A stretch of DNA of 27,121 nucleotides. Source: a virus. The stretch covers positions 1 to 27,121 of IMG/VR virus record IMGVR_UViG_3300004807_000102; one strand, given 5' to 3'. Positions 1,814 to 24,580 of this stretch are shown in pieces. The first letter of the stretch is position 1. Each line of letters starts with the position of its first letter. The translations under genes were made by a program, and so were the position numbers. Under the pieces are notes generated by a model that was not told where the DNA came from, searched no databases, and worked only from the letters and a program-made list of their open reading frames with translations.

Positions 1814-1819
1814 AACTAA

Positions 1820-1825
1820 TTCCTT
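1820..1825 (-). promoter_or_regulatory. Strong ribosome binding site deciding a GTG start
   Basis: AAGGAA on the minus strand lies six bases before GTG 1813-1811 and overlaps the TAA stop (1826-1824) of the upstream fibre gene. It is the reason for choosing the GTG as the start of the 132-residue protein and implies stop-start coupling. Confidence 0.7.
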
Positions 1826-3005: not shown

Positions 3006-3028
3006 GTTATCACCACATTAATAAAAGT

Positions 3029-3036
3029 ATTTATCA
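3029..3036 (-). promoter_or_regulatory. Candidate T4-type late promoter for the 393-aa fibre gene
   Basis: GATAAATA on the minus strand, one base from TATAAATA. It lies in the 39-base gap between two genes and ends 22 bases before the ATG (3005-3003). Confidence 0.55.
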
Positions 3037-3044
3037 AACCAAAC

Positions 3045-5226: not shown

Positions 5227-5907
5227 TTACGCCTGTGAAGTTAAATTGGTTAAGGTTTGAATACGAACAGTATAATCAATTTGAATTAAACGGTTTAGAC
5301 TTTTTTGAATTGGGTGAAAAATAACATGCGTAATTAAATTACCAGCATCAACTGTGTTACCATTCCAAACTTTAAGACCAAGTTCGTCAAAAACAAAAGT
5401 ATCATTAAAATTAGTTGTATTATCAAAAGCTTGTTGTCCACTAGGTTCGCCATAATCTAGTGTACATGTTACAAAAATATCACTATAAACAGTTCCAGTA
5501 GTATGGCGAATCTGTATATTATTTCTAGTAGGGTCTAAATTATAAACACTGTTTGGATCAACTACCTTATAATAAGTTTGATTATACAGGGCACTATTGC
5601 TGCCGCTTGTATTTGTTGGAAGATATGTAATAACACCAGTTGGGTCTACACTGGTTCCGCCATTGCCAAACGCCATTTCACTAATCCAACCCTGTCCGCC
5701 ATTACTCATTGCATTAGCTATTGCTAATGAAAAATTTTCATAATGAATTGCATTACGTTTATTAAGTAATACTTCTCCAGTATTTGGATCATGTATTTTA
5801 ATATGTCCCTGCAATAATAAACCGCTAGTTTCATTTGGTTTGTTCATTTTTTTGTTTCCATTAGATTCATTTGTATTTATTGGTTTTTTATCCGCAGTTT
5901 TATTCAT
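5227..5907 (-). CDS. Conserved-type virion/baseplate-associated protein, 226 aa
   Basis: The first 28 residues are Lys/Asn-rich and probably disordered. The globular part begins at 'LLLQGHIKIHDPNTGEVLL', followed by 'NAIHYENFSLAIANAMSNG', 'EMAFGNGGTSVDPTGVI', 'VTCTLDYGEP', 'FVFDELGLKVW' and 'LITHVIFHPIQKSLNRL'. I recognise this arrangement from structural proteins of T4-like marine phages but cannot give it a T4 gene number; gp8 is one possibility I cannot support. Its ATG (5907-5905) overlaps the stop of the 5088-residue gene by one base (TAATG), with AAGAGAA just upstream, so translation is probably coupled. Met21 (5847-5845) is an alternative start, preceded by TGGAAAC and by an AATAAATA site inside the coding sequence. 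A shorter form lacking the disordered leader is therefore possible. Confidence 0.8.
   Translation of the reverse strand: MNKTADKKPINTNESNGNKKMNKPNETSGLLLQGHIKIHDPNTGEVLLNKRNAIHYENFSLAIANAMSNGGQGWISEMAFGNGGTSVDPTGVITYLPTNTSGSNSALYNQTYYKVVDPNSVYNLDPTRNNIQIRHTTGTVYSDIFVTCTLDYGEPSGQQAFDNTTNFNDTFVFDELGLKVWNGNTVDAGNLITHVIFHPIQKSLNRLIQIDYTVRIQTLTNLTSQA
5874..5881 (-). promoter_or_regulatory. Possible internal late promoter in the 226-aa gene
   Basis: AATAAATA on the minus strand lies within codons 9 to 12 of the gene and 26 bases before Met21. In an AT-rich genome this can occur by chance; the distance to a plausible second start makes it worth recording. Confidence 0.25.
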
Positions 5908-8900
5908 TATAGTTCTCTTATAAATTGTGCATAACTTGTTTGACTAGTTTGTAAACTTTCACCGACACCCGTGAATGAAACACCTTGATAAAAACTTTGA
6001 CCTGGGTTAAGCAGAATATTTTTACCAGCATTATTAGTTATATATGTTGGACCTTGGTTGAAATTATTAACTGCGGTCCAGTATGCAGCATTAGTTGGAA
6101 TATTTCCTACAGTTTGAGCAGTAGCTTGATATATTACTCCATTATACGATACAACAGAATTTCTTGGGTATGTTGTTACTTGTGAAAAACTTTTAACATT
6201 TGTATAATCTGGTATTGTAATGAGCACATCACGGCTATTTGGTATTTCCAAAGATGAGCTACCATCAATTATTTGTGTTCCTGAAGAATGTACTTGTGGT
6301 GCACCTGTGCCCGCAGTTCCACGTCGCAATTGCCCAAGACGATTATTAACAACATCTTTGATGCCATATATTATTCGCTCGCCATTAATAAAAACAACAC
6401 CAGCTAAGTTATGTATTGGATCGGGGCTACTTAAATTAGCCACAGTTTCACAATAAATCCATTCATCAGCTAAATTTAAATCAGTTGCCAAGAATGTAGA
6501 TTTACTAGGGCGAACAGCATAATATCTAGTATTATTTTGTAAATCTTTAAAGATTCTATACTCAATTGCTTCTTCACGTATCACATTATTCCAAATACGA
6601 ACGCAGAACACATCACTCGCACTTACATTTAAGCTCGCACTTAATTGAATAGTTGTTGGATTTATTAAAATAAAGTCAACATATGGAATAAGTGGTGTGC
6701 CGCCAGTTGCTCCAGTAATTTTACGTGTAATATATATTTGATTTATATTATATACTGGTGCTGGTATAACATAGTAAGTTCCAAATGGCAAATAAGAATT
6801 TAACTCATTATCAAATCCATACAAGTCAAAGCCAAAAGTATCTATACCATCATCAATTGCAGCAGATGAAGATGTACTACCGCTAAACAATTTTACATAC
6901 ATAGTTGTAGCGTCATGATTGCCTTGTGTCATAACTGTTAATCTTGAATTATTTGGTATAATTAGATTTGGATTTAACCATAATTTATTTTTGTCATAAA
7001 TTTTGAAATCGCTTTGACTACTATCACTAATGATAATTTTGCTTCCAATAATTGGTGCGGTTGTAAATTGAATAACTGGCATTGCAACATTTGTTGGATC
7101 ATGATAAACAGTATAATCAACCCCACGATTGGCAATAACACCATTAACCGTAACTATAATTTCACCATCTGTAATTCCTGCAATATTTTCAACCCACGCG
7201 CTTGTCAAACTAAAATTAGTAGTCAGCCCATCAGCAGTATAGTAACTTTGTTGTGGCGGCAATAGGTCACTGCCGTTTAAACGCACCATTGACCACATGC
7301 TGTAAGGTTGTAGATATTCCTCTGGGTTAGAAAGTGTAAAATTATAACCATTGGGATAAGAAGGATTAGTAATAACAAACGTTTGTTCAAATATTTCGCT
7401 GTAAGCACGAGTTCCTAAAGAAACACCATACAAATGAACTTGAATGTAACTACCTGCTACAGGTGCTGTAGCAAATCTTACTACCAGAGTATTGATACCA
7501 TTTATCAGACTATTCACTAATGTCCAATTACTTACTGCTTGACCATTAACTTTGACATATGCTTGTTGCACTGTAGTAATAACATTATCAGGTATAGCAA
7601 AATCAGTAGTTACTCCATTTGCAACATACTCTTGATCAAACAGCGGATTAATACCGTTACTACCAATCATTAATACATACCAGAATGTACCACGAGTTGG
7701 CGTATAATTAAGATTTACAGTAAATTGCTGCCAATTAACTGTATAATCAACGCCTTCAGCTATAGTTCCAAGAGATTTATCTACAATTAATAGTTTTTCA
7801 ATACCACCTACTGGCAAAGAAACACCAGTAATACTTGGATCAAAACTAAAATATTTTTGACCTTGATATGTTGATATTATAGTTTTTATATCTGCGTTGC
7901 CGCCTTGAACTGGTAGAGTGCGAACTTTAATGTTGAGTGTATCAAATGTGCTTGCTGGAATCAATTCTTCAGGAGCATTGCTACTATAAGTGTCAATGAA
8001 ACCACCACCTAACACCACAATATCTTCTGTTCGTAATCCTAGTCCAGTATCTTTAAATGAACTTTGAATAATTGTGTCTTCGGTTTGATCACCATATATA
8101 TCGATTACGTTTTCTATATTTTTTGTAACATAATCATAAGTCAAAGTGTCATAATTATTGATATCATAATTTGGTAGTGTTTTAAAATTTGGTCCTTTAA
8201 TTTTATTTCCACCGTACTCTATTCCTAACATTAATTGAGCTAGGTCACGACCAGCCATACCTGAAAGGGGAGAATAGTATGCCCATATACGATCAGCAGC
8301 ATTATCTAAAAATAAACCATTATACGGAGTTAAGTTATTAGTATCAAAGAGTAAGCCACTTGTAAAATTGTTTGCTGCAAGATAAGCACTATTTTGATAA
8401 ACAACTATATCAAATTGTGGATAACTGGTTTCTGGATACCATATTTTGACACGTAGCAATAAAAATTTAGTAATATCAAAAGTATTAGTGCTTGTGTGCG
8501 CAACAATTACACGATATGGTTCACTATTATAAACTACTACAGTATCAATAGCATAGTTAGTATTTTTTTGCCAATCTTGAATATTGTTGAAATAAGTGTA
8601 ACGATCAAATTTAATATATGTATCAAGATTACGCACAACACCGTTGTTGAAAATAGCAACAGCAGTTGCGCCGCTGCCTGGTCCAATTACTTTTACTTTT
8701 GCATATGTAAAATCGCTTGTGCTACTAGTTACAGTGATAGTATATATAGTGCCATTTAAGATATGCGGCACTGCGGTTGCACTTTTACCATCACCTTCAA
8801 TAAGAACAGTAGTAGTACCATCATACCCACTGCCACCGTTGCCAACATCAATGCGTACAATTTGATACCCATGGTTTGCAACCCAAGGTTGATATACTGA

Positions 8901-11900
8901 GGTATTTGCAAGAACGCCAGAATCCAAAATATTGCTTTGTTGCGGACTGCGATATTGTTTAATACTAGCATTATAATAGGGTTGTAAGTCAAAGTCTGTT
9001 GTATTTGTTTGTACAATATCTAAATTATTATTATTATCATATTTTGCAATATATTGTTTTAATTTAGTATGATATGGTTTAACTTCTGCAAAAAAATCTG
9101 TTACAATATTTTCTGGTTGTGGAAGATATACTGGCAATTGATCAAGTCCGCGAACTCGATTGTATATGTCAATAAATGAAGTTTTCATTAACCAATCTGT
9201 AGAAATATTTTGTTGCACAATAGTATCAAGCATAAGTGAAATTATCGATTTAAAACTTGTACGATATTCATTGTTTAAAAGATAATCACGAATTATATCA
9301 AATATTTTTGAAAATTCTAGGTTACTGTCTGTATCAAATCCTACAGTTTCAAAACTATTAGTTTGGAATCCTTGTTTTGCAGATTGCAAATCATAAAGAT
9401 TACTATTAAACTGTATTGTTGCATTTTGTTGTGCAAGCAATTCTAAACTGTTGGTTGTTACAACAACAAGTTTCCACCCACCGCTATTACTATTTTTGAT
9501 ATAAATTATATCATTAACATTTAATTTTAGCGTACTGATTTCACTTTCCTTATCGACAGTACTAGTTATTGGTGTTTGGGCATTATAAGCTGAACTATAC
9601 CAATCGCTATAACTCCAATAATTGTTTAAATTATAGGATTGAACTTGGATAGTTTCCCAAATTCTTGTATTTGGAAAAGTAACATTAAGTTTGTATAGAC
9701 TCCAACCACCATTCCAAGATGAACTATCGCTTTCTACTAGAACTAAATCACCGTTATTATATGCATTTTTATCTAGATATCCCAATTCTGTTAAATTTTG
9801 AACTTTAATTTTATAAGAATCTGAATTTGGTAGCGGATCACGGGCGTTAAGTTTTAATATAGTTTCAGGGCGAGTTAATGCCATAGGATAAGTTGCGCAT
9901 ATTTTATTAACTTGTTCTATGTAAAGTTTACGTGCAGTATAATGCCCAACAAAAAGACTTTGGCGTGGACGAATGTCTAAACCGTATTTTTGTTTTTCTG
10001 GAAGTTTTGGGTCTGGAACAATTCTACCGCTGCTATCCTGTCCTGTCAAACTATCATTTAATTTGTTGATAAATTCAGTAGCAACACCAAATTCTGTACC
10101 ATCATCGAACATGGTCCATTCACTGTGTATAAGTTGTGGTTTTAAGGTATTTTTATATTCAATTACTAAATTTGTATTATCACTGACTAAATTTTGCGCA
10201 TTATACAACGCTACTGCACTTGGGCTGATAACGGCTGCAAACGGTTGATTACTAGAACGAGGATTTGCAATACTATTTTGAATTTCTAATGCACTTGGTC
10301 TAATATTATTAATATCTGGTAAAGTTGAATTTTTAACCCAGAAATAATATTTGGTTACCGCTACACCACTTACTGGATCAACTACTACACGAGTACTATA
10401 AACATCGTTAACAGTATAAAGAGGACCACTTAAACGATGTCTTTTTGCATATTCTTTAGGCAATAGATCGCTTTCTACCCATTCGTAAACATTAACAATG
10501 CTTTCTGGAAAAGCCAATCCCCAATAATTAAATTTATTCAGAGTTGTGCCTTGACGATTATCATAATACTTTATAGAATTGGTATCCCACCATAACTTGC
10601 CCACATGCTCCGAACCCCAATTATTTTTAGTATCAAAAGAAAAACTTATAGTACTTGGAACATTGCTATACACTGCTGGATCATAGTTAATTACATAATC
10701 AATATACTTTTCACTACTTTCTGGTAACTGATTATATGCTAAATCAACTACTGGCAGATCAGCTATAAGCTGTTGTGTAGTATCATTATAGATATAAATT
10801 CTATCAATCATACGACTATCATATTCTGCGCCTTGATTTCGAATAGTGTTCCAAATACGATTTTTGTACTGGTTATAATAAACATACATTGAACCAGTTG
10901 GGTTGTTTAACACATGTGCATGTGGTGCTCCCACAAGTATAAAATTATCACTTATGTCAATAGCAGTAGAATATGCATCAAGACTGTTTGCAGAATTGTT
11001 CATTAACATTCTGCCATAGGCAAACAACCCCTGATTAGTAGCAGTTTCAGTTTGACTTGGCTGATACTCAAATACGTGTGCTGCGCCGCTTCGATAAATG
11101 ATACTGTAAAATTGTATAGTTTTCTGATCAAATGTAGTATTTCCACCATCAAACATAGTTACTATTTTAGAATTACCGATAGTTGCCCCAACTACAAGAG
11201 TATTATTATCTGGGCTAATTGCAATATGGTCACCAAAATTTTGTGTATCTTGTAACATTGGGCTGTATAGTTTTTGTGATAATTGCCAAGAAATTATTCC
11301 CATTGCAGCCAGTGGGTCACCATATTCGTTGCGCAATCTTAACTTATTATAATCAACAAGAATATCACTATTAATTTGGACTGTGCCAGTAGCAGTAAGA
11401 TTTGCATTCACGCCTGGAATTGCTGCAGAATTTATATCACGAACACATTGTGCAGCATTGCCACCAGTGAATGTAACTAGCCAATCATTAATGCGAAGTT
11501 TTGTACCACTAGGCATGTTAACATTTACAATAGTTCCAGTTGCAACACCATATTTGCGTGGAATATTAACAAAATGATAGACTGCTCCATTTTGGCTACT
11601 ACTCGTATTAACACCAGTAGCACCAACATAGATATCACAATCATTCTTATTAATTTTTACACTTTGTCCAAATTTTGCATTATTTTGACCAGTATCCATT
11701 GTAGCTATCTTAGTAACAACAAACTGATTAGTTGATACTGCTACTATGGAGCCACTACTTGGTAAACTAGTTACTGTAACGTTATTATTAGAATAATCAA
11801 ATGTGGCTGAAGCAGACACACCATCTATGGTGACACTAGGATAGGTTATAAGATTTGGCGTAGTTATTGTAGTGCTATTTGCAAATGCATTACTTAAGTT

Positions 11901-14900
11901 AAATGTAGCAACACTGCCATTTGCAATGAAATTTTCAACAGTGCGTTCAAAAACATAAGCTTTACCTGCACCAGTATAACTATTTACAAGCGTAGCACTG
12001 CTACTTGGTGCACCAACAATAACTTGACGACCATCATCAGTGCAATGTACTGTAGTTCCAAAACCGATTGATTCTGGATCATCGGTAATTATCTGATTAA
12101 TTTCTTTATAGTAATTTTCATAGGATATGTAAATGTTTACACCATTTGCAGGCGCAACTGCAAATGTGATACTATCTTGACCTGGTGTTCTTATATAATC
12201 AAGGTCTGGGATTTGTAATATGCCACCTGCAAAAACTTTAATATCTCTGCTACCAAGATTTTTTCCTAATGCAGTTGATGGATAATAAAAAGTTGTAGTT
12301 AAACCATCGCCGCTTCTTTTGCTATTGCTGCCATTTACTGTTTGGTATTGATAGACAAAAACTTTACCTACGGTTGGTTCACCAACAAACATCCATTTAC
12401 TATCATTGCTTAGCGCAACACCTCTACCAAATTGACTGTTTGGAGCAATGTTAGAGTATATTCCTATCTTTTGGTTAGCGGAAATCGTTGCATTATTAGT
12501 TAAACCAATAGTATTGTATGGCGAACCTCTGACTATACTAGTAATAACAGTGCCATTTGGAATAACACTTCCTATGATAGGGTTGCCAACAGAAACATTA
12601 GCAAGATTTTGAATTCCACTTGATATAAAATATGCATTTACATTGGGAGTTATTGCTGTCACTGCTTGCGCAATATAACTGTTTGAGGTAACAAAAGTTA
12701 ATATAGCATTATTGCCAGTAAGTACTTTATTTGAAAGAGTAAGAACATGGAATCCGCCAACATTTGGAATTATAATATCGCTGTTAATTTGTGAAATATA
12801 AGTTCCTGATGGTATCAAATTTCCTAAAACAGGCATAGTATTTGCTGTAATACCACTTATACTTTGTGTATTACTAATATAGATATTTGCATTACTGCTT
12901 GTTAAATTTGCATAAAGTGTTTTATAGATACCGGCGTTACTAGTAAGAATAGTTGCAGTTTGATAATAATCAATCGGCGCACTATTAGACATTGCAATAT
13001 AGCTTGGTGTAGCATTAGTAAGATTTGCAATTTTTGTACCGCTTGGAATTCCATTACCGCCAACGCTCATGCCTACTGCAAAATTAGAAAGATTATAACC
13101 GCCTTGCGTAGCAGCATTTGCAGTTGCATTTTGTATTGTAGTATTGCCAATTAGAATAAAAGAATTGCTTGTTGCAACAGGACCACTAATAATATATAAA
13201 TTATCATAGTGAACAGCTTGATTTAATGTAACCGAATCACTAACAACATTTGCTAGATACACTGTTCCTTTTGAAAAAGACGGAGCCGAAATAGCTGCAA
13301 TACCGCTGCTATTAATATCAACATTTGAACCAAAACTAACTGCACGACTATCTGGGGACAGAATTCCATATTCTTGCCAAATATTATCGTTAGATTTTCC
13401 ATAAACAAATGCTTGACCGGTTGTGTTTTTCCCGCTTGCACCAACTATGGCAAAGCCCTGTGTGCTGTTTATTTTAATACTACTACCAAAATAATCACTT
13501 GGGTTGGTAAAAACTGGACTACGATATCCATCATATGCCCAACTATCTGTATTTTGTTTTACTTCCCAACCAGTTGGACCATTGTCAATATAAACAATTT
13601 CACCTAAATCCCAACCACGAACAGGTGTAAACTTAGTCCAATCTGTAATTGTACTATAACGAACATTAGTTAGCTTAAAGAGCGTTGCGCGTAAACTTCC
13701 GCTAGCAACCGTAATGTTATTAAGAATTTTTACAGTAAATGTATTGCCCGATGCGCTGCTTATGCGATAAAAACCACTTAAATCAAGAACACCAGTAGAA
13801 CTACTTGCATTTACAATTGTGCCATTCTTAATCATAATATAATCATACTTGACTAGATTATGTGCTGTATTTGTAGTAAAAGTTAATTCACTTGGAGATG
13901 TTTGGTTAACATTTGTTAAGTAAACTGCTCCTGTTCTGCTTAAGCGATATACTCCCCATTGATTGGCGGTATCTGCGGCAATCCATATTTTACTTGCTTC
14001 ACCTAATACTGGGTTTAAACCACTAATGTTATAAATTTTATTAATATCATACACACTAGCATTAGCATCTAATGGGCTTACTGGACCAGCATATGGAATT
14101 ATTTGTTTAGAAATTTCAGTTTGTGCAAATGGTGTGGTTGTATAACTCTGTGGAATTTGCGGAGTCAAAAGCAAATCACTTGGCTTAATTGAGTTATATT
14201 CAGTATTACGAGAATCATTTTGATTAATAAATTCAAACAAATACTGACCATTTATTGTATTTGAATTGCCAATATTAAACTCAATTTTGCTAATATTATT
14301 TGTGCCACCATAATTGCCAAGTTTAATTGCCCATTGTTCTACAAGAGTAATGTCACTATCAAGATTAGTCTGATTATTGCGCAAGAAAGCATTGATAACC
14401 GCTTGAGAACCTTTTTGGTTTATCATGCCCAAATAAAATTTATACTGAGTGGTTAAATCTGAGCCAAGGTCCGTAAAATATTGACGTTGTTGGAAACCAG
14501 TTGCATGTTTACCTAGTAAATCTGCTGCACTGTTAAGATCAGCATTATCTGGATCATAAAAATTAGTAAATTGGGCAGCACCACTTGCCATATTTGGAAT
14601 AAGTTGTTTGTTTAGCAAAGTGCCATTAATTAGATACCAATCACTGGCAACAAAATTTGCCGTACCTGGTATAAAATTTTGTGCAGCATAATATTGTGTT
14701 TTGAATAGTACAATATCGCCTTTATAGTAATCAGTAAATGTTTGCCAATTTGGAATTTCGCTTACATTTACAAAGAAACCAGGCGCATATAAACTACCAT
14801 TCCAACCTTGTGTTTTAATTCCATCTAGTCGTAAACGAAATTGGCGACTGCCAACTTGTTCATCATATAAGATGTCATTGAACACAGTTTGATTATCAAA

Positions 14901-17900
14901 TATAATGGCATGCTCATATTGTACAATAGAAATATCTAATAAGTGAATTCCTTTGCGTGTATTTTTTAAATCAATAACAAAACTATTATCTTCACGATAT
15001 ACACGATAATCTTTGCCAGAAAGAGTTGTTCCATCACTATCTACAACTTTAGTATAATTGTTTGTATTTGTTATCTTATCAACAACACCAAATGGACTAG
15101 AAAATTTGATACTTGTACCGGCAGGCGTTAACCCAATGACTGTATTGTCTCCCCAATTTTGCTGGTCCCAGAATAAAAATTCTTTTGCAGCAAGAGTCCA
15201 ATCAGCTACAGTTTGAGTATTTGGAACATTGTCTGTAAAGACAAAGCCTTGATTTACAAGATGACGCCCGTAACTTACTAGAAAATCAACTGTTTGTTGA
15301 GCCGTTGCAAAAAATGTACCATATGGATACGTAACAATATTATTACTGCTATCTTCATAAATTACTGCACTGCTATTGCCAACACGAATAGTAAAGTTAT
15401 TGCTGCTTACTCGGCTAGGTACGGTAAGAAAATATGGTCGTAGCTTATCAAATCCACTTACTTGGTATCCACCTGTTACTTTTTGCACTACAACTGCGCT
15501 GTATATTGCACGAGAAACAGGTGCACCTTTAGTAACTTTAACTTTATAATTTTCGCTTGGAATTAAAATACTTACATTTTTACTTTGTGGGCTTACTTGA
15601 TCTGCAGTTATGGTTAAGTAACTTTGATCAGTAAAGCCAGCAATTTTATAAACAAGATTAAATGTACTGTTATTTGCTACATCAATCCAATTTATTGTAG
15701 GATCAAGATTATTACTTAAAAGATAATCACGAATCCAAACATTTATGCCCGGTATATACTGGTTTGGTCCGCTTACACTATAATCAAATATACGACTATT
15801 ACTATTAATATTAATAATTTGATTTAATTTTGAGTTGAACTGAATATCACGTGTATTATATTTTAGTGCACAATATTGCGCTGGTCTTGCTAAGAACCAA
15901 GCAAGTTGAATCGCAAAAGGATATGCACTGCTACGACGCCATGCAGTTTCTTGTGGACTTTGATCTCCTATAGTCCAAGCATTTCCGCCAGTATTAGCGT
16001 CATATGTGGCAATAACCGATTCTAGAGGAGGTAATAGATTGCCATGGCTATCAACTGGGATTATTTTACTTAAACCAGGTCTGCTGTAACTTGTGTTAAT
16101 ATAGGTTGCATTTGGATTACCATTATAGATTAACCCAAGTTCTAAATCGCCCCATAGTAATTTGTTTTCGCTGCTATATGGCGCTGGTCCATAACGAACT
16201 TGCCACCAACTTGGTTTTTGTACAAATCCTAACATTTCCCAAGGATGGGTATGTGGACGATCTGTGTCATAAAAATATTTGTATATACCACGCCAATAAC
16301 CTGGAACATTATTTCCAAACAAACGATCTATGCCAGTGGCATAATTGAAACTAAAAAAATCACCAGTAAGAGTATCGTTTTTAAAAATATCTACATTGTT
16401 TTGATTTGCCCAAGTAAGATAACTGCCACTTAGCAACTGAGTCCATTCAGCAAAACTATAATCAGTTGATCTAAATGCACCTGGTTCTACACTGCTTAAA
16501 TCATAATCACTGTTATTAGCATAAGTTACAGCGATATTATTATAAACACGTTTTTCAAATTCAAGTAAAATATAATCACGGTAGTCGCCCCAAGAGACAG
16601 TATAACTGCCATCATGACCAATAATCACTGTTTGTGGAGTAAGATAGGTATTGTCTTCAACAATCTCAGGTTTAAACGCTGGATAAAGACCAAGTTTTGT
16701 TGGAGTTGCTGGTACATTGCAACCAGTCGTGTCACTATATTCATAAACTGTAATTGTGTCAAGTCTTGATAGTGCAAGACTGCTAGAAAGAGTGATAGAA
16801 AGATCATTCAAAGTATAGTCTATACCATTAAGCAATAGTGTATTATTAAGATAAACAAGAACTGCTTTATAATTTTTTGACTTATTTGTATAGTTGTTTA
16901 CTAGGTTATATGAACGATAGTTGGTATTTTGAACAATATATTCATTAACAATATAATTATTTCCACCAGCAATCATATCAGTATACGCAAAATTTTTGTT
17001 ATAATTTGCAGCTTGAGCAAATTGCAATAGTATACTATCAACGCAAGCACGGTAATTATGTGGATCACTAAATTCTAAATTGTTAATAAAATCTAGCAAC
17101 TGAGATTTGAAATTTTGATAAGAATTACTGGCATGGGTAATAGTAAGAAATGGATCAACATCGCTATTTGATAACATAAGTGCCGCTGGTCGCAAACTTG
17201 CGCTATGTTGTAATAACTTACCACCTATATCGCTATAATTTAAATCACGGAAATTATTAATACCAGCGGGATTGCCAATCAACCCAACAGTATTATTGCC
17301 AATTTCAATTAAATGGTTACGAATTTGACCTAATGTAATTGTGCTAAATTCTGTATTTTCGCTGTTATTAACTAAATTTTTTGGCATAGTATAGGTTTGA
17401 CCATATACACTGCTTGTTCCATTTATTTTAACAAATAATCTATCACCACTTTGTAAATCATTATTAAATTTGATTACGCTAGTAGTTGAACTTGTTTGCA
17501 ATTGGAAATTATTAGATGTTTGTAATACTCCATTTACATACACAAATAAGTTATTTTCATAATAACTGTTTGTATAAACTACGCCTAAATCAAAATTATT
17601 ATTTTTGATATCGGTTGCAGTAAATGTTTTTGTAATAAATTGTTTACTTTTATCTGAAACCGCTGCCCAACCATTAGCAAAGTTGTAATTTTGCCAACCA
17701 ACTATGATTGCAGCAAAACCATGATTAACAGACAATTGTGTGTCAACATTATTCAAATTATAATTAAAAGTATCTGTAATATAATAATTATCAAATACTA
17801 TATCGCCAATGTTACCAATATTTTGATAAACTAAAGGAAAACCAAGTTCTTTATCTGCTGCTGTTGATGTTGAGCCTACTGCATAACCAAATAAACGACT

Positions 17901-20900
17901 GCCAGCAAAGTTGCTACTTGGATAAACATCTTTGTCAGCTAAACTATAGCCATTAATATCAACAAGATCAAATAGCGGAAATTGTGGGCGACTGTTACGA
18001 ACTTGTGCTAAATTCCACGTGTTGTTACTATAATAAAATACATTTCCCTGATTGATATCGCCTTCCATAGCAACAATATTATCGCCATCATTAATTGTCT
18101 GAACAGGAATCAAATGAATTTGAGTTGCACTGTTATCAAAATTAATTGTAGTATTAACTGCAATATCACTTGTTAAATTATTACTAATATAAACAATATT
18201 ATTTGTAGTATCAATGCTCTTAATAGTTGTATGCGGAGGTATTGCATTTGTATAAATTGCCCAATAATCGGTGTTTAATGGCAGTATGCCATATGAATTT
18301 TGTGTGGCAATAAATGTAGTGCCATTATAGTGAACAATTTGACCAGTGGTATAAGATGTAATATCACTATAAAGTGCACCAAAGCTTACTAGCTGACCTA
18401 TCGCTAGGTTACCGATATCACAATATAACTTATTTGTGCCCACTGCGCTGAAAGCATAGGTATTTTTATTTGAGTAGTTAGGTGTTACTCCGCTGCGAAT
18501 ATAATTAAGCTGAACTTGGTAAATCGTGCGACGAATAGTTGGATCATTTTCATTTACAAACAAAACTGTAGTGCCATCAAGTAGCTGAATACCATCACTA
18601 TTATAAACACCGTTTGTTTTTAATGAATAACTGTTTTGCCCTTCTACTTGCTCAAATGCATTTGTTGTAATGCTGTCAATACATGTTACACTGCCTGCAT
18701 AATTTGTGCCATAGTTCCATAATTTTAAATCAGGTTGAAATTCTACAATTGGGCGTTGAGCTTGTTGATTAGCATCAAATACAAATGTTTGATTAGTGTA
18801 ATTTGCTGCAGCTTGTAATGTATCACGGTGGAACCAACGATTGTTTCTGGTCCAACCATTTCCATCTACACTGGCACGATTGATAGTGATATAATCTTTT
18901 TCTTCAGGGCTATTAGTAGTTCCATCAAATCCACCAATGCCATATGGTCTATCTTCGCCAAAAAAATCACCTGAATTAGTATTGATAACTTCGGGCGTTA
19001 CTAAACCATTATAATCTATAAGTTTAATAGATGTACCTACGCCTTCAATGACATATGTGTTATCTTTGTAACTTGTTGGAGTGACAAGACCAGTAAATTG
19101 AATCTTTAAACCATTTGTAAACTGCACACCGTTTGGGCTTGTATAAACACTGCGACCTATAATATCATCTACATTTAATATACTTGAAGGATCAGCATCA
19201 ACTAAACGTATTTCTCCATAGATAAGTGGATCATCTGCGTCTACGTAATATAGAATGTTTTTTGATGCACTAAGGGTTGGAAATTTTGTAATATTAGATG
19301 CATTGTCTTTGAAACTATACACGTGACCATAGGTGTCACCCTGTCCTACAAGCGTTTTATATCCGGCCGCCCAATCAGTTACATACACCAAATTCATATT
19401 TCTATAATTTGGATTTGCAACGCTTTGATAGAAATTTATAATATTTGATCCAACAGTAGGAATAGTTTGATCTAGTGTTACAATATTTCCATAAGATATA
19501 TTATCAAATACTGCTCCATCCCATGGAGATGCATCTGCATCATATCCTGTATCGCTAGTACTTGCCGAAACCGTAGTGCCAACCAATATTCCAGTTCCGA
19601 TAGCTGCTTGTGTTACTAATATTTTAGAAATTGCAGCAGAATCTGAGATGTAAAAAAGATTTGTAGGAGATGTTACATTAGTATTATAAGTTACGACAGC
19701 ATCATTAGATGAAGCTGAAGTTGTAGCGTTACTTAAGGTAACAATTCTACCAGAAATATTAGTTATAGTTGTACCTTTTGGTATTCCAAATCCTGTAATT
19801 AACTGTCCAACTCCAACATTAGCTACGCTAGCAAGTTCTGCAGAATTAGAACCACTTGTATAAAATGCAGTAGTTGTACCGCCTAATGAAAGAGCAGTAG
19901 CTGTGGTAGATACTACGCTATCTACAGAATAAACTCCAACAGTAATATTATTACTTGCGCTGATTGTTTGATTATCAATTATAAGAGTGTTGCCTACTAC
20001 TTGTGCAATTCTAGTGCCATTCTTAATGCCAGAACCTACTATTAATTGACCAGCATATATGCCTGCTGTACTTGAAACAGAAATACTGCTTTGTCCGCTT
20101 GTAAATGACACTCCAGAAATTTTAGCAATTGTAGAACCAGTATACAATACTTGAGTATTGTCGATAGAAATTTGCCAAATTCCACCTCTTTGATTTACTG
20201 GAACGTTGTCCCACTCAACATCACTGTTAATTACAATATATTTTTTGTCAAAAGCACGAACACCATCTAAACTATAATTTAAAATGAAATTATCATAATT
20301 TTGATTTTGTAGTAGTGAATATGGAACATCAACAATCATATCAACTGATTGTTGTAAATTTGGCAAACTTAAAAGATAATCTTGTGCAGTAGAAAGTGGC
20401 ACATTAAATGTAATTGCGCCATTGCTAACACCATTGTTATCTAATCCTAGAATATCACGAGTAGAAATGTTAGATTGTGTGCTGCTTAAGCCACTAGTGC
20501 CAATCTCAGTTTGAATATAAAATTTGTGTCCAGTTTGCCCTAAATTAAATGTATAGGTTCCACCTCTTACTAGTGTAAGTGTTGGATTGATAGCATCTTT
20601 GTACCCATCAATTGTATAACCACTTTTGCCAATACTTGCACTTTGTAATTCTGTTTGATTATTGGCAACATACGCAATACGATGAAAATTATAAGATGCT
20701 TGTAAAGGCAATCCACCAGCAGTTACATCTACAGTAAAAGGTCCAGTAGGAACCCAGTAATATTGACGATAATTAGTAATTTTATCAAGATCAATGAATC
20801 CATTGTAACTATAATAACGATTAGTGAACAGGCGTTGATGATTATTGTTTAATCCGCCGTCTCCGCTTATCTGGTTAAGCAAATCTGGATAGTTATATAC

Positions 20901-21173
20901 ATTATCAATCTTATAGGTATTGCCACCATTTTGAGTTTTCTTAATTACAACACCTGGTTCTAATTGATAAAATTGACTGTAAGAATCGCCTTCTGCAATA
21001 TAATAATCGCTACTTTTAAAAACTGGGCTTTGATCTTGTTGACCAATATATCCGTAAATCTTCTTTAATGCTGGTTCTTCAATTAATTGATCTACTGTAG
21101 CATTTAAAAAACGTTTATTTGTAAGAGTTTGAAAAACACTAGGTAGAAAATTAATACTTTTACGCTTAGTCAT
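5907..21173 (-). CDS. Giant modular baseplate/tail structural protein, 5088 aa
   Basis: A single uninterrupted frame follows gp6, the place of gp7 in T4-like phages (T4 gp7 is 1032 residues). Residues 1-150 ('FLPSVFQTLTNKRFLNATVD', 'YGYIG', 'YQLEPGVV', 'DLDKITNYRQYYW') match large structural proteins of marine T4-like phages. So do 'RGGTYTFNLGQTGHKFYI' (203-220), 'YITINRASVDGNGWTRNN' (761-778), 'RPIVEFQPDLKLWNYG' (807-822), 'HPWEMLGF' (near 1645), 'WNGSLYAPGFF' (near 2124) and 'IRPRQSLF' (near 3735). Seven FG-GAP-type repeats lie at about 2555-3440. Carbohydrate-binding-like units start near 930, 2143, 4201, 4245 and 4995. Near the C-terminus are 'DGLTTNFSL' fibre-type units (4512-4720) and 'GQLRRGTAGTGA' (near 4946). 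No signal peptide or membrane segment is visible. AAGGTG lies four bases before the ATG and overlaps the gp6 stop. Probably wedge assembly plus host-surface contact; the latter is inference. Confidence 0.9.
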   Translation of the reverse strand: MTKRKSINFLPSVFQTLTNKRFLNATVDQLIEEPALKKIYGYIGQQDQSPVFKSSDYYIAEGDSYSQFYQLEPGVVIKKTQNGGNTYKIDNVYNYPDLLNQISGDGGLNNNHQRLFTNRYYSYNGFIDLDKITNYRQYYWVPTGPFTVDVTAGGLPLQASYNFHRIAYVANNQTELQSASIGKSGYTIDGYKDAINPTLTLVRGGTYTFNLGQTGHKFYIQTEIGTSGLSSTQSNISTRDILGLDNNGVSNGAITFNVPLSTAQDYLLSLPNLQQSVDMIVDVPYSLLQNQNYDNFILNYSLDGVRAFDKKYIVINSDVEWDNVPVNQRGGIWQISIDNTQVLYTGSTIAKISGVSFTSGQSSISVSSTAGIYAGQLIVGSGIKNGTRIAQVVGNTLIIDNQTISASNNITVGVYSVDSVVSTTATALSLGGTTTAFYTSGSNSAELASVANVGVGQLITGFGIPKGTTITNISGRIVTLSNATTSASSNDAVVTYNTNVTSPTNLFYISDSAAISKILVTQAAIGTGILVGTTVSASTSDTGYDADASPWDGAVFDNISYGNIVTLDQTIPTVGSNIINFYQSVANPNYRNMNLVYVTDWAAGYKTLVGQGDTYGHVYSFKDNASNITKFPTLSASKNILYYVDADDPLIYGEIRLVDADPSSILNVDDIIGRSVYTSPNGVQFTNGLKIQFTGLVTPTSYKDNTYVIEGVGTSIKLIDYNGLVTPEVINTNSGDFFGEDRPYGIGGFDGTTNSPEEKDYITINRASVDGNGWTRNNRWFHRDTLQAAANYTNQTFVFDANQQAQRPIVEFQPDLKLWNYGTNYAGSVTCIDSITTNAFEQVEGQNSYSLKTNGVYNSDGIQLLDGTTVLFVNENDPTIRRTIYQVQLNYIRSGVTPNYSNKNTYAFSAVGTNKLYCDIGNLAIGQLVSFGALYSDITSYTTGQIVHYNGTTFIATQNSYGILPLNTDYWAIYTNAIPPHTTIKSIDTTNNIVYISNNLTSDIAVNTTINFDNSATQIHLIPVQTINDGDNIVAMEGDINQGNVFYYSNNTWNLAQVRNSRPQFPLFDLVDINGYSLADKDVYPSSNFAGSRLFGYAVGSTSTAADKELGFPLVYQNIGNIGDIVFDNYYITDTFNYNLNNVDTQLSVNHGFAAIIVGWQNYNFANGWAAVSDKSKQFITKTFTATDIKNNNFDLGVVYTNSYYENNLFVYVNGVLQTSNNFQLQTSSTTSVIKFNNDLQSGDRLFVKINGTSSVYGQTYTMPKNLVNNSENTEFSTITLGQIRNHLIEIGNNTVGLIGNPAGINNFRDLNYSDIGGKLLQHSASLRPAALMLSNSDVDPFLTITHASNSYQNFKSQLLDFINNLEFSDPHNYRACVDSILLQFAQAANYNKNFAYTDMIAGGNNYIVNEYIVQNTNYRSYNLVNNYTNKSKNYKAVLVYLNNTLLLNGIDYTLNDLSITLSSSLALSRLDTITVYEYSDTTGCNVPATPTKLGLYPAFKPEIVEDNTYLTPQTVIIGHDGSYTVSWGDYRDYILLEFEKRVYNNIAVTYANNSDYDLSSVEPGAFRSTDYSFAEWTQLLSGSYLTWANQNNVDIFKNDTLTGDFFSFNYATGIDRLFGNNVPGYWRGIYKYFYDTDRPHTHPWEMLGFVQKPSWWQVRYGPAPYSSENKLLWGDLELGLIYNGNPNATYINTSYSRPGLSKIIPVDSHGNLLPPLESVIATYDANTGGNAWTIGDQSPQETAWRRSSAYPFAIQLAWFLARPAQYCALKYNTRDIQFNSKLNQIININSNSRIFDYSVSGPNQYIPGINVWIRDYLLSNNLDPTINWIDVANNSTFNLVYKIAGFTDQSYLTITADQVSPQSKNVSILIPSENYKVKVTKGAPVSRAIYSAVVVQKVTGGYQVSGFDKLRPYFLTVPSRVSSNNFTIRVGNSSAVIYEDSSNNIVTYPYGTFFATAQQTVDFLVSYGRHLVNQGFVFTDNVPNTQTVADWTLAAKEFLFWDQQNWGDNTVIGLTPAGTSIKFSSPFGVVDKITNTNNYTKVVDSDGTTLSGKDYRVYREDNSFVIDLKNTRKGIHLLDISIVQYEHAIIFDNQTVFNDILYDEQVGSRQFRLRLDGIKTQGWNGSLYAPGFFVNVSEIPNWQTFTDYYKGDIVLFKTQYYAAQNFIPGTANFVASDWYLINGTLLNKQLIPNMASGAAQFTNFYDPDNADLNSAADLLGKHATGFQQRQYFTDLGSDLTTQYKFYLGMINQKGSQAVINAFLRNNQTNLDSDITLVEQWAIKLGNYGGTNNISKIEFNIGNSNTINGQYLFEFINQNDSRNTEYNSIKPSDLLLTPQIPQSYTTTPFAQTEISKQIIPYAGPVSPLDANASVYDINKIYNISGLNPVLGEASKIWIAADTANQWGVYRLSRTGAVYLTNVNQTSPSELTFTTNTAHNLVKYDYIMIKNGTIVNASSSTGVLDLSGFYRISSASGNTFTVKILNNITVASGSLRATLFKLTNVRYSTITDWTKFTPVRGWDLGEIVYIDNGPTGWEVKQNTDSWAYDGYRSPVFTNPSDYFGSSIKINSTQGFAIVGASGKNTTGQAFVYGKSNDNIWQEYGILSPDSRAVSFGSNVDINSSGIAAISAPSFSKGTVYLANVVSDSVTLNQAVHYDNLYIISGPVATSNSFILIGNTTIQNATANAATQGGYNLSNFAVGMSVGGNGIPSGTKIANLTNATPSYIAMSNSAPIDYYQTATILTSNAGIYKTLYANLTSSNANIYISNTQSISGITANTMPVLGNLIPSGTYISQINSDIIIPNVGGFHVLTLSNKVLTGNNAILTFVTSNSYIAQAVTAITPNVNAYFISSGIQNLANVSVGNPIIGSVIPNGTVITSIVRGSPYNTIGLTNNATISANQKIGIYSNIAPNSQFGRGVALSNDSKWMFVGEPTVGKVFVYQYQTVNGSNSKRSGDGLTTTFYYPSTALGKNLGSRDIKVFAGGILQIPDLDYIRTPGQDSITFAVAPANGVNIYISYENYYKEINQIITDDPESIGFGTTVHCTDDGRQVIVGAPSSSATLVNSYTGAGKAYVFERTVENFIANGSVATFNLSNAFANSTTITTPNLITYPSVTIDGVSASATFDYSNNNVTVTSLPSSGSIVAVSTNQFVVTKIATMDTGQNNAKFGQSVKINKNDCDIYVGATGVNTSSSQNGAVYHFVNIPRKYGVATGTIVNVNMPSGTKLRINDWLVTFTGGNAAQCVRDINSAAIPGVNANLTATGTVQINSDILVDYNKLRLRNEYGDPLAAMGIISWQLSQKLYSPMLQDTQNFGDHIAISPDNNTLVVGATIGNSKIVTMFDGGNTTFDQKTIQFYSIIYRSGAAHVFEYQPSQTETATNQGLFAYGRMLMNNSANSLDAYSTAIDISDNFILVGAPHAHVLNNPTGSMYVYYNQYKNRIWNTIRNQGAEYDSRMIDRIYIYNDTTQQLIADLPVVDLAYNQLPESSEKYIDYVINYDPAVYSNVPSTISFSFDTKNNWGSEHVGKLWWDTNSIKYYDNRQGTTLNKFNYWGLAFPESIVNVYEWVESDLLPKEYAKRHRLSGPLYTVNDVYSTRVVVDPVSGVAVTKYYFWVKNSTLPDINNIRPSALEIQNSIANPRSSNQPFAAVISPSAVALYNAQNLVSDNTNLVIEYKNTLKPQLIHSEWTMFDDGTEFGVATEFINKLNDSLTGQDSSGRIVPDPKLPEKQKYGLDIRPRQSLFVGHYTARKLYIEQVNKICATYPMALTRPETILKLNARDPLPNSDSYKIKVQNLTELGYLDKNAYNNGDLVLVESDSSSWNGGWSLYKLNVTFPNTRIWETIQVQSYNLNNYWSYSDWYSSAYNAQTPITSTVDKESEISTLKLNVNDIIYIKNSNSGGWKLVVVTTNSLELLAQQNATIQFNSNLYDLQSAKQGFQTNSFETVGFDTDSNLEFSKIFDIIRDYLLNNEYRTSFKSIISLMLDTIVQQNISTDWLMKTSFIDIYNRVRGLDQLPVYLPQPENIVTDFFAEVKPYHTKLKQYIAKYDNNNNLDIVQTNTTDFDLQPYYNASIKQYRSPQQSNILDSGVLANTSVYQPWVANHGYQIVRIDVGNGGSGYDGTTTVLIEGDGKSATAVPHILNGTIYTITVTSSTSDFTYAKVKVIGPGSGATAVAIFNNGVVRNLDTYIKFDRYTYFNNIQDWQKNTNYAIDTVVVYNSEPYRVIVAHTSTNTFDITKFLLLRVKIWYPETSYPQFDIVVYQNSAYLAANNFTSGLLFDTNNLTPYNGLFLDNAADRIWAYYSPLSGMAGRDLAQLMLGIEYGGNKIKGPNFKTLPNYDINNYDTLTYDYVTKNIENVIDIYGDQTEDTIIQSSFKDTGLGLRTEDIVVLGGGFIDTYSSNAPEELIPASTFDTLNIKVRTLPVQGGNADIKTIISTYQGQKYFSFDPSITGVSLPVGGIEKLLIVDKSLGTIAEGVDYTVNWQQFTVNLNYTPTRGTFWYVLMIGSNGINPLFDQEYVANGVTTDFAIPDNVITTVQQAYVKVNGQAVSNWTLVNSLINGINTLVVRFATAPVAGSYIQVHLYGVSLGTRAYSEIFEQTFVITNPSYPNGYNFTLSNPEEYLQPYSMWSMVRLNGSDLLPPQQSYYTADGLTTNFSLTSAWVENIAGITDGEIIVTVNGVIANRGVDYTVYHDPTNVAMPVIQFTTAPIIGSKIIISDSSQSDFKIYDKNKLWLNPNLIIPNNSRLTVMTQGNHDATTMYVKLFSGSTSSSAAIDDGIDTFGFDLYGFDNELNSYLPFGTYYVIPAPVYNINQIYITRKITGATGGTPLIPYVDFILINPTTIQLSASLNVSASDVFCVRIWNNVIREEAIEYRIFKDLQNNTRYYAVRPSKSTFLATDLNLADEWIYCETVANLSSPDPIHNLAGVVFINGERIIYGIKDVVNNRLGQLRRGTAGTGAPQVHSSGTQIIDGSSSLEIPNSRDVLITIPDYTNVKSFSQVTTYPRNSVVSYNGVIYQATAQTVGNIPTNAAYWTAVNNFNQGPTYITNNAGKNILLNPGQSFYQGVSFTGVGESLQTSQTSYAQFIREL
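10854..13511 (-). other. Seven FG-GAP-type repeats, predicted seven-bladed beta-propeller (residues ~2555-3440)
   Basis: Inside the 5088-residue protein, seven repeats follow the FG-GAP_2 pattern 'FG..v.is.dg..lvGAp....g.vyvy'. The leading Phe-Gly falls at residues 2562 (FGSSIKINS), 2614 (FGSNVDINS), 2915 (FGRGVALSN), 3038 (FGTTVHCTD), 3168 (FGQSVKINK) and 3313 (FGDHIAISP). The seventh has Ala-Tyr instead at 3400 (AYSTAIDIS). Matching second motifs are VGAS, ISAP, VGEP, VGAP, VGAT, VGAT and VGAP. Each ends in a strand such as QAFVY, TVYLA, KVFVY, KAYVF, AVYHF, AHVFE and MYVYY. Seven is the blade number of integrin-alpha-type propellers. Blade spacing varies from 52 to 301 residues because of inserted modules. 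Confidence 0.75.
12444..13184 (-). repeat. Three 'G-IP-GT' repeats inserted between propeller blades 2 and 3
   Basis: Residues about 2664-2910 of the giant protein hold three copies of a 70-90-residue unit. Their cores are 'GGNGIPSGTKIANL' (from about 2705), 'GNLIPSGTYISQI' (from about 2784) and 'GSVIPNGTVITSI' (from about 2868). Each is preceded by Asn-rich strands and followed by a strand such as 'IAMSNSAP', 'LTLSNKVL' or 'IGLTNNAT'. The protein-level repeat is clear; the DNA copies have diverged. Confidence 0.65.
19434..20111 (-). repeat. Related 'G-I-GT' repeats near the N-terminus of the giant protein
   Basis: Residues about 355-580 contain two clear copies and one degenerate copy of the unit also found between propeller blades 2 and 3. 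Clear cores are 'GQLIVGSGIKNGTRIAQV' (about 375-392) and 'GQLITGFGIPKGTTITNI' (about 456-473), followed by 'LIIDNQTISAS' and 'VTLSNATTSAS'. The third copy, 'AIGTGILVGTTVSAS' (about 524-538), has a 20-residue interruption before 'IVTLDQTI'. Confidence 0.6.
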
Positions 21174-21177
21174 ATTA

Positions 21178-21183
21178 CACCTT
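21178..21183 (-). promoter_or_regulatory. Ribosome binding site of the giant gene
   Basis: AAGGTG on the minus strand lies four bases before ATG 21173-21171 and overlaps the stop codon of the gp6-like gene. This fixes the start and suggests that translation of the giant protein is coupled to gp6. Confidence 0.65.
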
Positions 21184-24100
21184 AATAAGTTATCATAGTT
21201 GTATTAATACCAGCACTATTAATACCACTTAAAACACCGTTCACCACTTGAATATTATCGACAGTAGCCGCACTTAAGAAAATTTCGTTTGGTTGGCAAC
21301 GAATTTCATATAGACTACCAAATTTAGCATTTGTATCTGCAGGCAACAAAATCACGCTGCTAATATACCCATTTAATTTTTCATGCAAATAACCAGATAA
21401 TTCACTAAAGTAGAAAGTATCACCAAAATTCCAATTATCTAATGCAAAGTACATGTTAATTGCATCTACGACACGGCTTTTTATTTCTGTATCACTTAAA
21501 GTTGTTGTAGAATTTTTTACTACTTGAATTGTTGCACGTAAACTAGGAGTTGCTTTGTTACCAAATAGCAACTTGTAAATACCAGCATTTAAAATCATCT
21601 CATCACTTATCATTTTATAATTAAACAATCCGCCATAACTACTGTTTAACGTAACGCTATCTAGGTCTGCTGGTTTTGCAATTGTGCCTGTATTATCAAT
21701 TACATAATTTCTATACGCTTCATCATAGCTACGAGTTAACACATATGTATCTATTAAATTTGTAGCAGCAGGATCAATTCTTCGAGTATTTTCTGCATTA
21801 TGTTGATATTCAAATATTAAATTTTGACGACCTGTATAAACCAAATAATTGTTGCTAACATTTACAACAGTGTTAATACCGTTTATACTTTGAATTTGAT
21901 AAAATTGTTGATCACTTGTAGCATAAAAAAGTGCATTTATTGGAAAGTTATTGCGCACATAATTGATTGCTGACATCGTAGAATATGCAATACTTACTGT
22001 GCCAATATCTAGTAATGAATAACGAATCAAGTTATCTGAATCGGTGTATAATTTAAAGAAAATATAACCAGTATTACTTGTTATTTCGCTGAATATATAT
22101 GGATCAGTGGGCAATCCACTTGTTTGACTAATTGGATAGGTAACATAGATTCTAGTTGTATCATTATACCCATCATTCATAATCATATTTTTGTATATGT
22201 TTAAGTTTACATTGCTTGTAACATTGCTGTTAACATCTAATACACGAATATTATCCTTTACCAGTGTATTATTTCTTGCATCATAAATTGCAGTTGGAGC
22301 AACACTGATAAAGCTTACCTGTGAACTGCTACCAAAAATATAATCAAGTTGACGATAGGTAGTAGTATATCTGATACCATCAGTGTTAAAAATTAATAGC
22401 CAACTTGTGTCATTAGCACTATACTGTGTTGTTAAATCAAATGGATTAACCTTATCAACATTTGTAATTGGAATAATTGTCCATGGGTCACGAGCACTTG
22501 TAGTTTTGGTATAATCATATACAAGTGCAAATTCTGTTTTATTTAAAATATAACTTACCATAGTATTAATAGTAGCATACTGCAGCGTATTTGCAAATGG
22601 CGGATATACTTGGCTAATAATAGCACCAGTTGGTATATTTTCACTAATAGTTACTGCACCAATTTTACGACCAGCAACCAACACAGTTGTTGCTCCGCTG
22701 CCTGTGATGCTCTGTATACTTGCCCAAATAACGGTTCTATCACTATCCACAAGAGGAGTTCCGCTTATAAGTGTATTGTTTGCATCAAAATAATAACCAG
22801 TAGGAGCAACAAATTTAATTAAACTGTTAATCTCTAGATATTTTCTATAGGAAGAAGCAGGCGCACTGTTTGCAATAGCAAGTGGAGTATTTGTTGTATC
22901 GCTAGGGCTTAAGAAAAATCCAGTAGATGTGCTTGTATCACTGGTGCTACGACTCCAAGTAGTAGGAGCAAGAATTGTAAAATCTAATGGCGTCCAATTT
23001 TCATAGTAGAAATGACGCATTGGATAATCTTCAATTGCCTTCATTACCTGTTCATTGATAGCGTTAATAATATCATTTCGACTTGTATAGCTAAAATTAA
23101 AACTACTAGTATGTTGATTCTTATAAAATACACCATCTTTTGCGTATAAATCAGTGCTTGTATACTTTCCAGTGGGGTCAGTAATATCAAGACCACGACT
23201 TACACCGCTAGCAAAACGATTTACAGATTTTACTTTAACAATATCACTATAATAGGTATATGGAAATACATTATAATCTTCGCCATTAACCATGCGGTTT
23301 TGTGTATAATAGGCTTGTGGCGCTTTTTGTTTGATTTCATTTGTCAAATCACGTCGCGAAGAATTACTTACAGTATATTGCAGTGAGCAACTAATAGTAA
23401 AGGTTTCAGTAGTGCCACTGCTACTAATATAAGGCATAGCTATTGAAATATTACTCATATCACTAGGTGTAATACGATAGGTTAAACCATTACTAACACG
23501 ATAATATGCACGATAATTGCCTAACGGAATCTCACTATAACTGCCGTCACCAAATATTAAATCAATTTGATCATTGATACGAGTATTAACACTGTATAGT
23601 GTACGTATACCACGAGCAACACTGTTATAGATAGCATTGCTGCCTGCAGTGCTTGCTACCTGTGTCCATTCAGTGCCAATTGTTCCATTTGTAATTTCAT
23701 ACATCCAAACATCGTTATTATTAATATTTGCAGTATTAATAGCAAATACACGATTTGCTACTTTTTCACTAATTGTAAAATCTGTAGAATTTAAAACACC
23801 TTGTTTAAAGAATACAAAAAATCCTGTGTTAGCACTAGCATTACCACGACTGTCATTTTGATAAACAATACCAAATTGACCACGGGTACCGGGATCATAT
23901 TCAGTAATTGTATCGGTTGTTAATATATTAGCACTCACGCTTTCAAAGTTTGTAGCCACTCCATTAACAAGAGTACTAAAAGTAAACACTGGCAGTATAG
24001 TATTTGGAATAGCAATATTATATTGCTCGGTACGAATGCCATTAATTATTTTGCTAGCATATGGCTTGCCAACTTTTTGACTAGAGGAGATTGCAGCATT

Positions 24101-24580
24101 TAATATTTGTGTGAACTGGCTTGCCCAATTAGCATTGTTAGGATCATTCCAATCAACTTTAACTCTGCTCAAGTTATTGCCATTAATATCTTGAATATTT
24201 TCGCTTGTGCTTACACTATTAATTTTTAAAAAGCCACTAGCAGCACGGTTACGATTTGGGCTATAATTTAATTGTTTTACTAGTTTCAGGACGCTATCAC
24301 GACGTTCTGCAGTTTCTAAGAAATTTTCACGAGCATTTAGGTCTGTACGAAATGCAACACTTTGTGCTGTAAATGCAACTAGATCAAGCAGTGCTACATA
24401 CTCACTGCTTTCAATAAAGTCATTAAAATCTTCTGCATAGTAGGTCTTGATATAATCAACCATAACCTTACGCAGCGTCTCAAAGTCATAGCTTTGAAAA
24501 TCTGCATTCGAAAAAGTTGTATATATTGTTTTCCAATCTTCTGCAGCAAATATATTTGTTTGGCGTGTACCAGCACTCAT
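21182..24580 (-). CDS. 6: Baseplate wedge protein, gp6-like, 1132 aa
   Basis: In T4, gp6 forms the ring that links baseplate wedges and belongs to the baseplate J-like family. The N-terminal part (about 30-120) has the family signature: 'YDFETLRKVMVDYIKTYY', 'DFNDFIESSEYVALLDLVAF', 'AFRTDLNARENFLETAERRD', 'VKQLNYSPNRNRAASG'. The C-terminal part (about 1000-1132) has 'VVDAINMYFALDNWNFGDTF', 'YFSELSGYLHEKL', 'FGSLYEIRCQPNEIF' and 'NIQVVNGVLSGINS', as in gp6 and other J-like baseplate proteins. It is well above the 660 residues of T4 gp6, with the extra length in the beta-rich middle. It follows gp25 with a 46-base gap that holds a late-promoter-like AATAAATA and an AAGGGT ribosome binding site. 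The order gp25-gp6 is that of marine T4-like phages. Confidence 0.92.
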   Translation of the reverse strand: MSAGTRQTNIFAAEDWKTIYTTFSNADFQSYDFETLRKVMVDYIKTYYAEDFNDFIESSEYVALLDLVAFTAQSVAFRTDLNARENFLETAERRDSVLKLVKQLNYSPNRNRAASGFLKINSVSTSENIQDINGNNLSRVKVDWNDPNNANWASQFTQILNAAISSSQKVGKPYASKIINGIRTEQYNIAIPNTILPVFTFSTLVNGVATNFESVSANILTTDTITEYDPGTRGQFGIVYQNDSRGNASANTGFFVFFKQGVLNSTDFTISEKVANRVFAINTANINNNDVWMYEITNGTIGTEWTQVASTAGSNAIYNSVARGIRTLYSVNTRINDQIDLIFGDGSYSEIPLGNYRAYYRVSNGLTYRITPSDMSNISIAMPYISSSGTTETFTISCSLQYTVSNSSRRDLTNEIKQKAPQAYYTQNRMVNGEDYNVFPYTYYSDIVKVKSVNRFASGVSRGLDITDPTGKYTSTDLYAKDGVFYKNQHTSSFNFSYTSRNDIINAINEQVMKAIEDYPMRHFYYENWTPLDFTILAPTTWSRSTSDTSTSTGFFLSPSDTTNTPLAIANSAPASSYRKYLEINSLIKFVAPTGYYFDANNTLISGTPLVDSDRTVIWASIQSITGSGATTVLVAGRKIGAVTISENIPTGAIISQVYPPFANTLQYATINTMVSYILNKTEFALVYDYTKTTSARDPWTIIPITNVDKVNPFDLTTQYSANDTSWLLIFNTDGIRYTTTYRQLDYIFGSSSQVSFISVAPTAIYDARNNTLVKDNIRVLDVNSNVTSNVNLNIYKNMIMNDGYNDTTRIYVTYPISQTSGLPTDPYIFSEITSNTGYIFFKLYTDSDNLIRYSLLDIGTVSIAYSTMSAINYVRNNFPINALFYATSDQQFYQIQSINGINTVVNVSNNYLVYTGRQNLIFEYQHNAENTRRIDPAATNLIDTYVLTRSYDEAYRNYVIDNTGTIAKPADLDSVTLNSSYGGLFNYKMISDEMILNAGIYKLLFGNKATPSLRATIQVVKNSTTTLSDTEIKSRVVDAINMYFALDNWNFGDTFYFSELSGYLHEKLNGYISSVILLPADTNAKFGSLYEIRCQPNEIFLSAATVDNIQVVNGVLSGINSAGINTTMITY

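Follow-up and report, generated by a model that had tools for sequence, protein, structure and literature searches.

Among the closest described counterparts of the protein analyzed here are giant proteins of isolate jumbo phages. Homologs are present in eight of them (Phosso, Atu_ph07, PA5oct, RaK2, SCTP-2, XaC1, CBB, and Vibrio 2.275.O), and in several of these the giant is encoded directly behind annotated baseplate wedge genes. The CBB homolog, CBB_236, was detected in the virion by mass spectrometry with 21 peptides (PMC5259590), and the PA5oct homolog, gp355, was found in the virion by the same method according to its annotation note. In phAPEC6, which is compared here by position alone, a 382-kDa protein (gp245) encoded beside the baseplate wedge gene gp244 was also detected in the virion (PMC7247149). 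Propellers have been reported in other jumbo phage proteins, namely the Kelch-type propellers of CBB_550, CBB_552, and CBB_554, one of which was detected in virions (PMC5259590). The relatives found in this study are represented solely by contigs from metagenomes.

Genomic Context of the Giant Protein

The whole stretch of DNA analyzed here (27,121 nucleotides, hereafter the window) constitutes a viral record of 27 kb. Its listed reading frames all lie on the minus strand but one, and it reads as a tail/baseplate cluster. All window features given below are on the minus strand. A gp25-type baseplate wedge protein (24627..25013; Pfam GPW_gp25, E 2.4e-8) is followed by a gp6-type baseplate wedge protein (21182..24580; PHROG 10646, E 4.8e-276), which adjoins the open frame of a 5088-aa giant structural protein (5907..21173; PHROG 10938, virion structural protein; 99% identical to a copy in L001) that hosts the propeller. 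By its place after gp25 and gp6 and by its shared backbone, this protein is a RaK2-like gp6-adjacent giant virion protein. The backbone is conserved upstream of the insertion site described below (residues 1480-2440; 13854..16736), as found by blastp with the giants of the eight isolates, and downstream of it (residues 3448-4100; 8874..10832), where it is common to RaK2-like giants. The initial annotation had assigned the protein to the phage baseplate, and this is supported by the gp25-gp6-giant synteny together with the homologs detected in virions by mass spectrometry. Identity with T4 gp7 or gp10 was ruled out, as hhalign comparisons of the backbone (A2 versus gp7, A2 versus gp10, and A1 versus gp7) gave probabilities of at most 0.3%.

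Elsewhere in the giant are two matches to carbohydrate-binding module 5/12, at approximately 8484-8573 (above the Pfam cut-off) and 18300-18365 (below it). Three adjoining genes at 1415-4241 (132, 393, and 398 aa) have a common C-terminal "GRV...V.GP..KG" segment and are probably tail-fiber paralogs. At the other end of the window (25028-27121) is a large protein without a Pfam or PHROG match, in which a possible CHAP-like segment was noted by eye along with short tandem repeats (e.g., "VVIDTxYxSVGRQN").

Seven FG-GAP_2 Units in the Giant Protein

The giant contains seven tandem FG...GAP...VYVY units within residues 2562-3446 and none elsewhere in its 5088 residues. Pfam FG-GAP_2 (PF14312) matches it at 66.1 bits (E 3.1e-18), above the curated gathering cut-off of 23, and scores 36.6-108.9 bits in relatives. 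With a family HMM iterated on the relatives, the seven units score 11.6-38.5 bits, compared to -2.4 for the highest-scoring stretch outside them and 6.6 for the top stretch in 200 shuffled proteins; as the window units were included in the HMM, the shuffling is a specificity control rather than an independent discovery. Chance spacing of the units is ruled out by these shuffles and by conservation in the relatives.

Together with its inserts, the propeller spans residues 2558-3447 (10833..13502), as delimited by Pfam, the family profile, the alignment, and AlphaFold2. HMM and AlphaFold2 place blade 1 at residues 2562-2609 (13347..13490), blade 2 at 2614-2655 (13209..13334), blade 3 at 2915-3030 (12084..12431), blade 4 at 3038-3157 (11703..12062), blade 5 at 3168-3303 (11265..11672), and blade 6 at 3313-3392 (10998..11237), of which blades 3, 4, and 5 each include an insert between strands 3 and 4. 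Blade 7, placed by the alignment as well, occupies residues 3401-3446 (10836..10973). The seven FG-GAP units claimed in the initial annotation are borne out by the Pfam match (the profile search it had called for) and by a 43-protein alignment, and its FG positions are exact for six of them (residues 2562, 2614, 2915, 3038, 3168, and 3313). For blade 7, it had read Ala-Tyr at residue 3400, which is one residue out of register; the alignment puts Tyr3401-Ser3402 in the place of Phe-Gly. Nor is there support for the suggestion of a degenerate closing blade, for the FG columns of blade 7 are 93% F and 95% G among the relatives. The Tyr-Ser replacement is lineage-specific, with a normal FG in nearly all relatives.

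A conserved-backbone search of IMG/VR yielded at least 583 confirmed relatives, of which the best 80 were kept. Among these best 80 of at least 583, the relatives that span the site mostly have five to seven detectable units. In a second sample, consisting mostly of downstream-flank matches plus six MAG loci, 69 of 88 frames, certain ones truncated, contain five to seven units. Both samples are best-scoring matches to the window, and the propeller-bearing fraction is accordingly biased toward the window's kin. The MAG contigs (L096-L101), which have related backbones, were left out of host inference, the binning of phage contigs being unreliable.

In the 43 aligned proteins, the others of which are 21-57% identical to the window protein, seven units are in register, providing independent support for their number. 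The glycine is preceded by F, Y, or L or, in a few cases, by a different residue. The median spacing of successive units is 54, 55, 120, 120, 145, and 91 residues, and in compact relatives (L057 and L066, for example) the first five intervals are 44-57 residues and the sixth 86. A tblastn search of the window propeller against the phage collection gave no match. A different type of FG-GAP protein was observed in Sinorhizobium phage Phosso (XYS97267.1; L094 3802-13317), a "hypothetical protein" of approximately 3,690 residues (3,172 read) separate from the gp6-adjacent giant, in which the local HMM detects approximately 37 FG-GAP units, equivalent to several propellers in a row.

Predicted Fold

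Searched against all PDB sequences, the family profile retrieved integrin alpha chains (alpha-4, M, 6, IIb, L, and X; best E 1.8e-12), and did so again when another alignment was used. In the AlphaFold2 model of window residues 2475-3500 (pTM 0.74), the blades are four-stranded and mostly predicted at pLDDT 85-97, while about a third of the model, including the large insert after blade 2, is disordered. Foldseek ranked integrin first for this whole-window model, but the superposition is poor (query TM at most 0.15), owing to the interruption of the ring by inserts and to the disordered third of the model. The compact homolog L066, which naturally lacks the inserts, was modeled with seven four-stranded blades (mean pLDDT 84.5, pTM 0.83). 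Its best solved match is the integrin headpiece 4wk2 (E 1.1e-12, TM 0.52/0.60), and it also matches the CIAO1 propeller (TMt 0.77) and other propellers of the seven-bladed kind.

A closed ring is thus well supported by modeling for L066, and on the strength of this homolog we strongly infer a closed ring for the window protein. The seven-bladed integrin-type propeller proposed initially is therefore supported as a prediction by the family profile, AlphaFold2, and Foldseek, with L066 standing in for the ring. The structural check proposed with it came out in part: confident four-stranded blades were obtained in the window protein and seven blades in L066, but not a good superposition of the whole window model. 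As for the suggested removal of the inserts in silico, relatives that are naturally insert-free (L057 and L066) keep seven blades.

Inserts and a Conserved Hairpin

For the most part, the extra modules in the AlphaFold2 model occupy the loops that join strands 3 and 4 in blade 3 (residues 2947-3020; 12114..12335), blade 4 (residues 3085-3142; 11748..11921), and blade 5 (residues 3207-3294; 11292..11555), a position that by propeller topology puts them on one face. The large insert between blades 2 and 3 (residues 2656-2909; 12447..13208) is modeled with low confidence and is shorter in most close relatives (79-97 residues versus approximately 250). The number and length of inserts vary among the closest relatives; L104 has an extra unit in blade 3, and L107 an insert near blade 1. 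The inserts that the closest relatives share are about as similar as the blades, and the faster divergence that would be expected for a host-contact module was not seen among them.

Between strands 2 and 3 of blade 6, the 43-protein alignment reveals a nearly invariant FD...TTFD hairpin (residues 3338-3363; 11085..11162), in which D3342, T3346, D3349 (within FDxxxTTFD), and G3363 are invariant in 43 of 43 proteins. The integrin-type calcium loop DxDxDG has no match in window residues 2475-3450, which rules out a calcium-binding propeller, and only three weak pattern matches were found among the 43 proteins.

The Insertion Site and Its Occupants

The propeller takes the place of a short loop that connects an anchor hairpin, GEIVYI...GWEVKQN (residues 2522-2543; 13545..13610; also seen by AlphaFold2), to the conserved downstream backbone, and the backbone of the isolate giants can be aligned on either side of the FG-GAP segment. 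At this site there are approximately 50-110 residues in RaK2, CBB, XaC1, and Vibrio 2.275.O, 340 in PA5oct, 520 in SCTP-2, and 1530 in Atu_ph07 and Phosso; no FG-GAP was found there by Pfam in the seven isolate giants tested. By eye, the approximately 520 aa of Salicola phage SCTP-2 (L010 18366-20012) appear LamG/concanavalin-like, with no Pfam match at E 0.01.

Among the metagenomic relatives, the site is empty in L063 and L112, where the anchor hairpin is kept ("RVWVN...GWAVYTYNG") and leads directly to "TWxRTRQQ..VDI". These two are sisters at 72% identity, placed beside the propeller-bearing L066. The loss is therefore no artifact of misassembly in a single contig, and it has lasted. In L052 and L065, the propeller site is occupied by a YHYH domain (PF14240; Pfam E 8e-31 and 4e-29). 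The L068 group has no FG-GAP units and carries a GDSL/SGNH-hydrolase-like domain just upstream of the anchor hairpin (residues ~2280-2440 of the L068 giant). By eye, L069, L082, and L091 also appear to have such an upstream domain and no FG-GAP units.

On a quick backbone tree of 90 rows, rooted on the RaK2 group, three changes of the propeller state are required, as would result from a single gain in a broad uncultivated clade followed by two or more losses. Taken together, the tree and the site occupants indicate that within this clade the propeller is old, inherited, dispensable, and replaceable.

Possible Role of the Propeller

We consider it fairly likely that this closed seven-bladed FG-GAP_2 propeller, at its one exact site in the baseplate-region giant, acts as a dispensable disc that contacts the cell surface or tail fibers. 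Such a disc would be held by both termini and would probably be exposed, displaying small extra domains that have grown within the linker between blades 2 and 3 and within the loops joining strands 3 and 4 in blades 3-5; disc and inserts together may then bind ligands on the cell surface or on tail-fiber proteins, while the blade-6 hairpin (FD...TTFD) probably provides the constant contact by which the disc is seated on the phage. As relatives have other modules or nothing at its site, the propeller probably serves the phage tail as an exchangeable platform for contact, and the receptor contact or assembly platform proposed in the initial annotation is plausible. More tentatively, the propeller may represent an undescribed host-contact organ of the whole clade, that is, a standing platform on the baseplate for exchangeable domains, seated via the blade-6 hairpin. 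A point against a contact role is the vertical inheritance of the propeller over great divergence, as a receptor-binding domain would more typically be exchanged among closely related strains.

The main rival is an internal assembly scaffold, in which the propeller would dock wedge or fiber proteins inside the baseplate and never meet the host, with the inserts as fillers that tune contacts between virion proteins. The long vertical inheritance fits a scaffold as well, as do the near invariance of the blade-6 hairpin and the shared inserts that diverge no faster than the blades. However, RaK2-like relatives with the same backbone lack the propeller, L063 and L112 have lost it cleanly, and L052 and L065 have an unrelated domain instead; as the propeller is dispensable, an essential scaffold is disfavored, and we regard a scaffold as rather unlikely. 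It is improbable that the seven units, although real, form an open or two-part propeller split by the 250-residue insert and the blade 3-5 domains: the disordered stretches and the poor global superposition of the whole-window model on solved propellers would agree with it, but the blade strands in the window are predicted with high confidence, the inserts are located in loops, which in propellers can accommodate them, exactly seven units are found in 43 relatives, and the insert-free L066 is modeled as a seven-bladed propeller. It is likewise improbable that the propeller is mere decoration, neutral or stabilizing and with no part in contact, in a protein whose loop at this site can take bulk. 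The site does accept insertions of diverse type and size and can also be empty, but the persistence of the propeller across a deep clade, its conserved blade glycines, and the invariant hairpin point to selection.

A propeller conserved across most of the clade can be treated as one named module with exact borders, and L063 and L112 serve as natural knock-outs that make its role testable.

Comparison with Known Systems

Integrin alphaI domains sit between blades 2 and 3 of the integrin alpha propeller, the same topological place as the largest insert of the window protein. The propeller further resembles the integrin alpha head in its seven four-stranded FG-GAP blades, in sequence profile, and in the best solved structural match of L066. 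Unlike in integrin alpha, it lacks DxDxDG loops, sits mid-chain in a phage structural protein, and carries unrelated inserts; no thigh or calf domains come after it, and the RaK2-like phage backbone follows directly. With the Pfam FG-GAP_2 proteins, among them those labeled "FG-GAP repeat" in uncultured phages (e.g., A0A6J5S3H5 in BFVD), it shares family membership by cut-off and a structural match, but differs in being fixed at one site of a gp6-adjacent giant and decorated with inserts. The integrin-type propeller is thereby extended to a phage baseplate-region protein. No such description, and no paper joining FG-GAP, phage, and baseplate, was found in the open literature (a scope beyond which most subscription papers and preprints lie), and none of its papers on FG-GAP and phage appears, from titles and abstracts, to describe such a propeller.

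Among phage proteins, T4 gp7 agrees with the window giant in gene position only, without sequence homology. The CBB Kelch propellers are likewise encoded by a jumbo phage, but belong to the Kelch family and to separate genes outside the gp6-adjacent giant. RaK2 ORF070, CBB_236, PA5oct gp355, and Atu_ph07 gp180 have the same gene order and a common backbone on both sides of the site, but have a short loop or other repeats there and no FG-GAP unit. What is new here, compared to these systems, is a propeller confined to one exact site where relatives have a short loop, an empty hairpin, or a YHYH domain.
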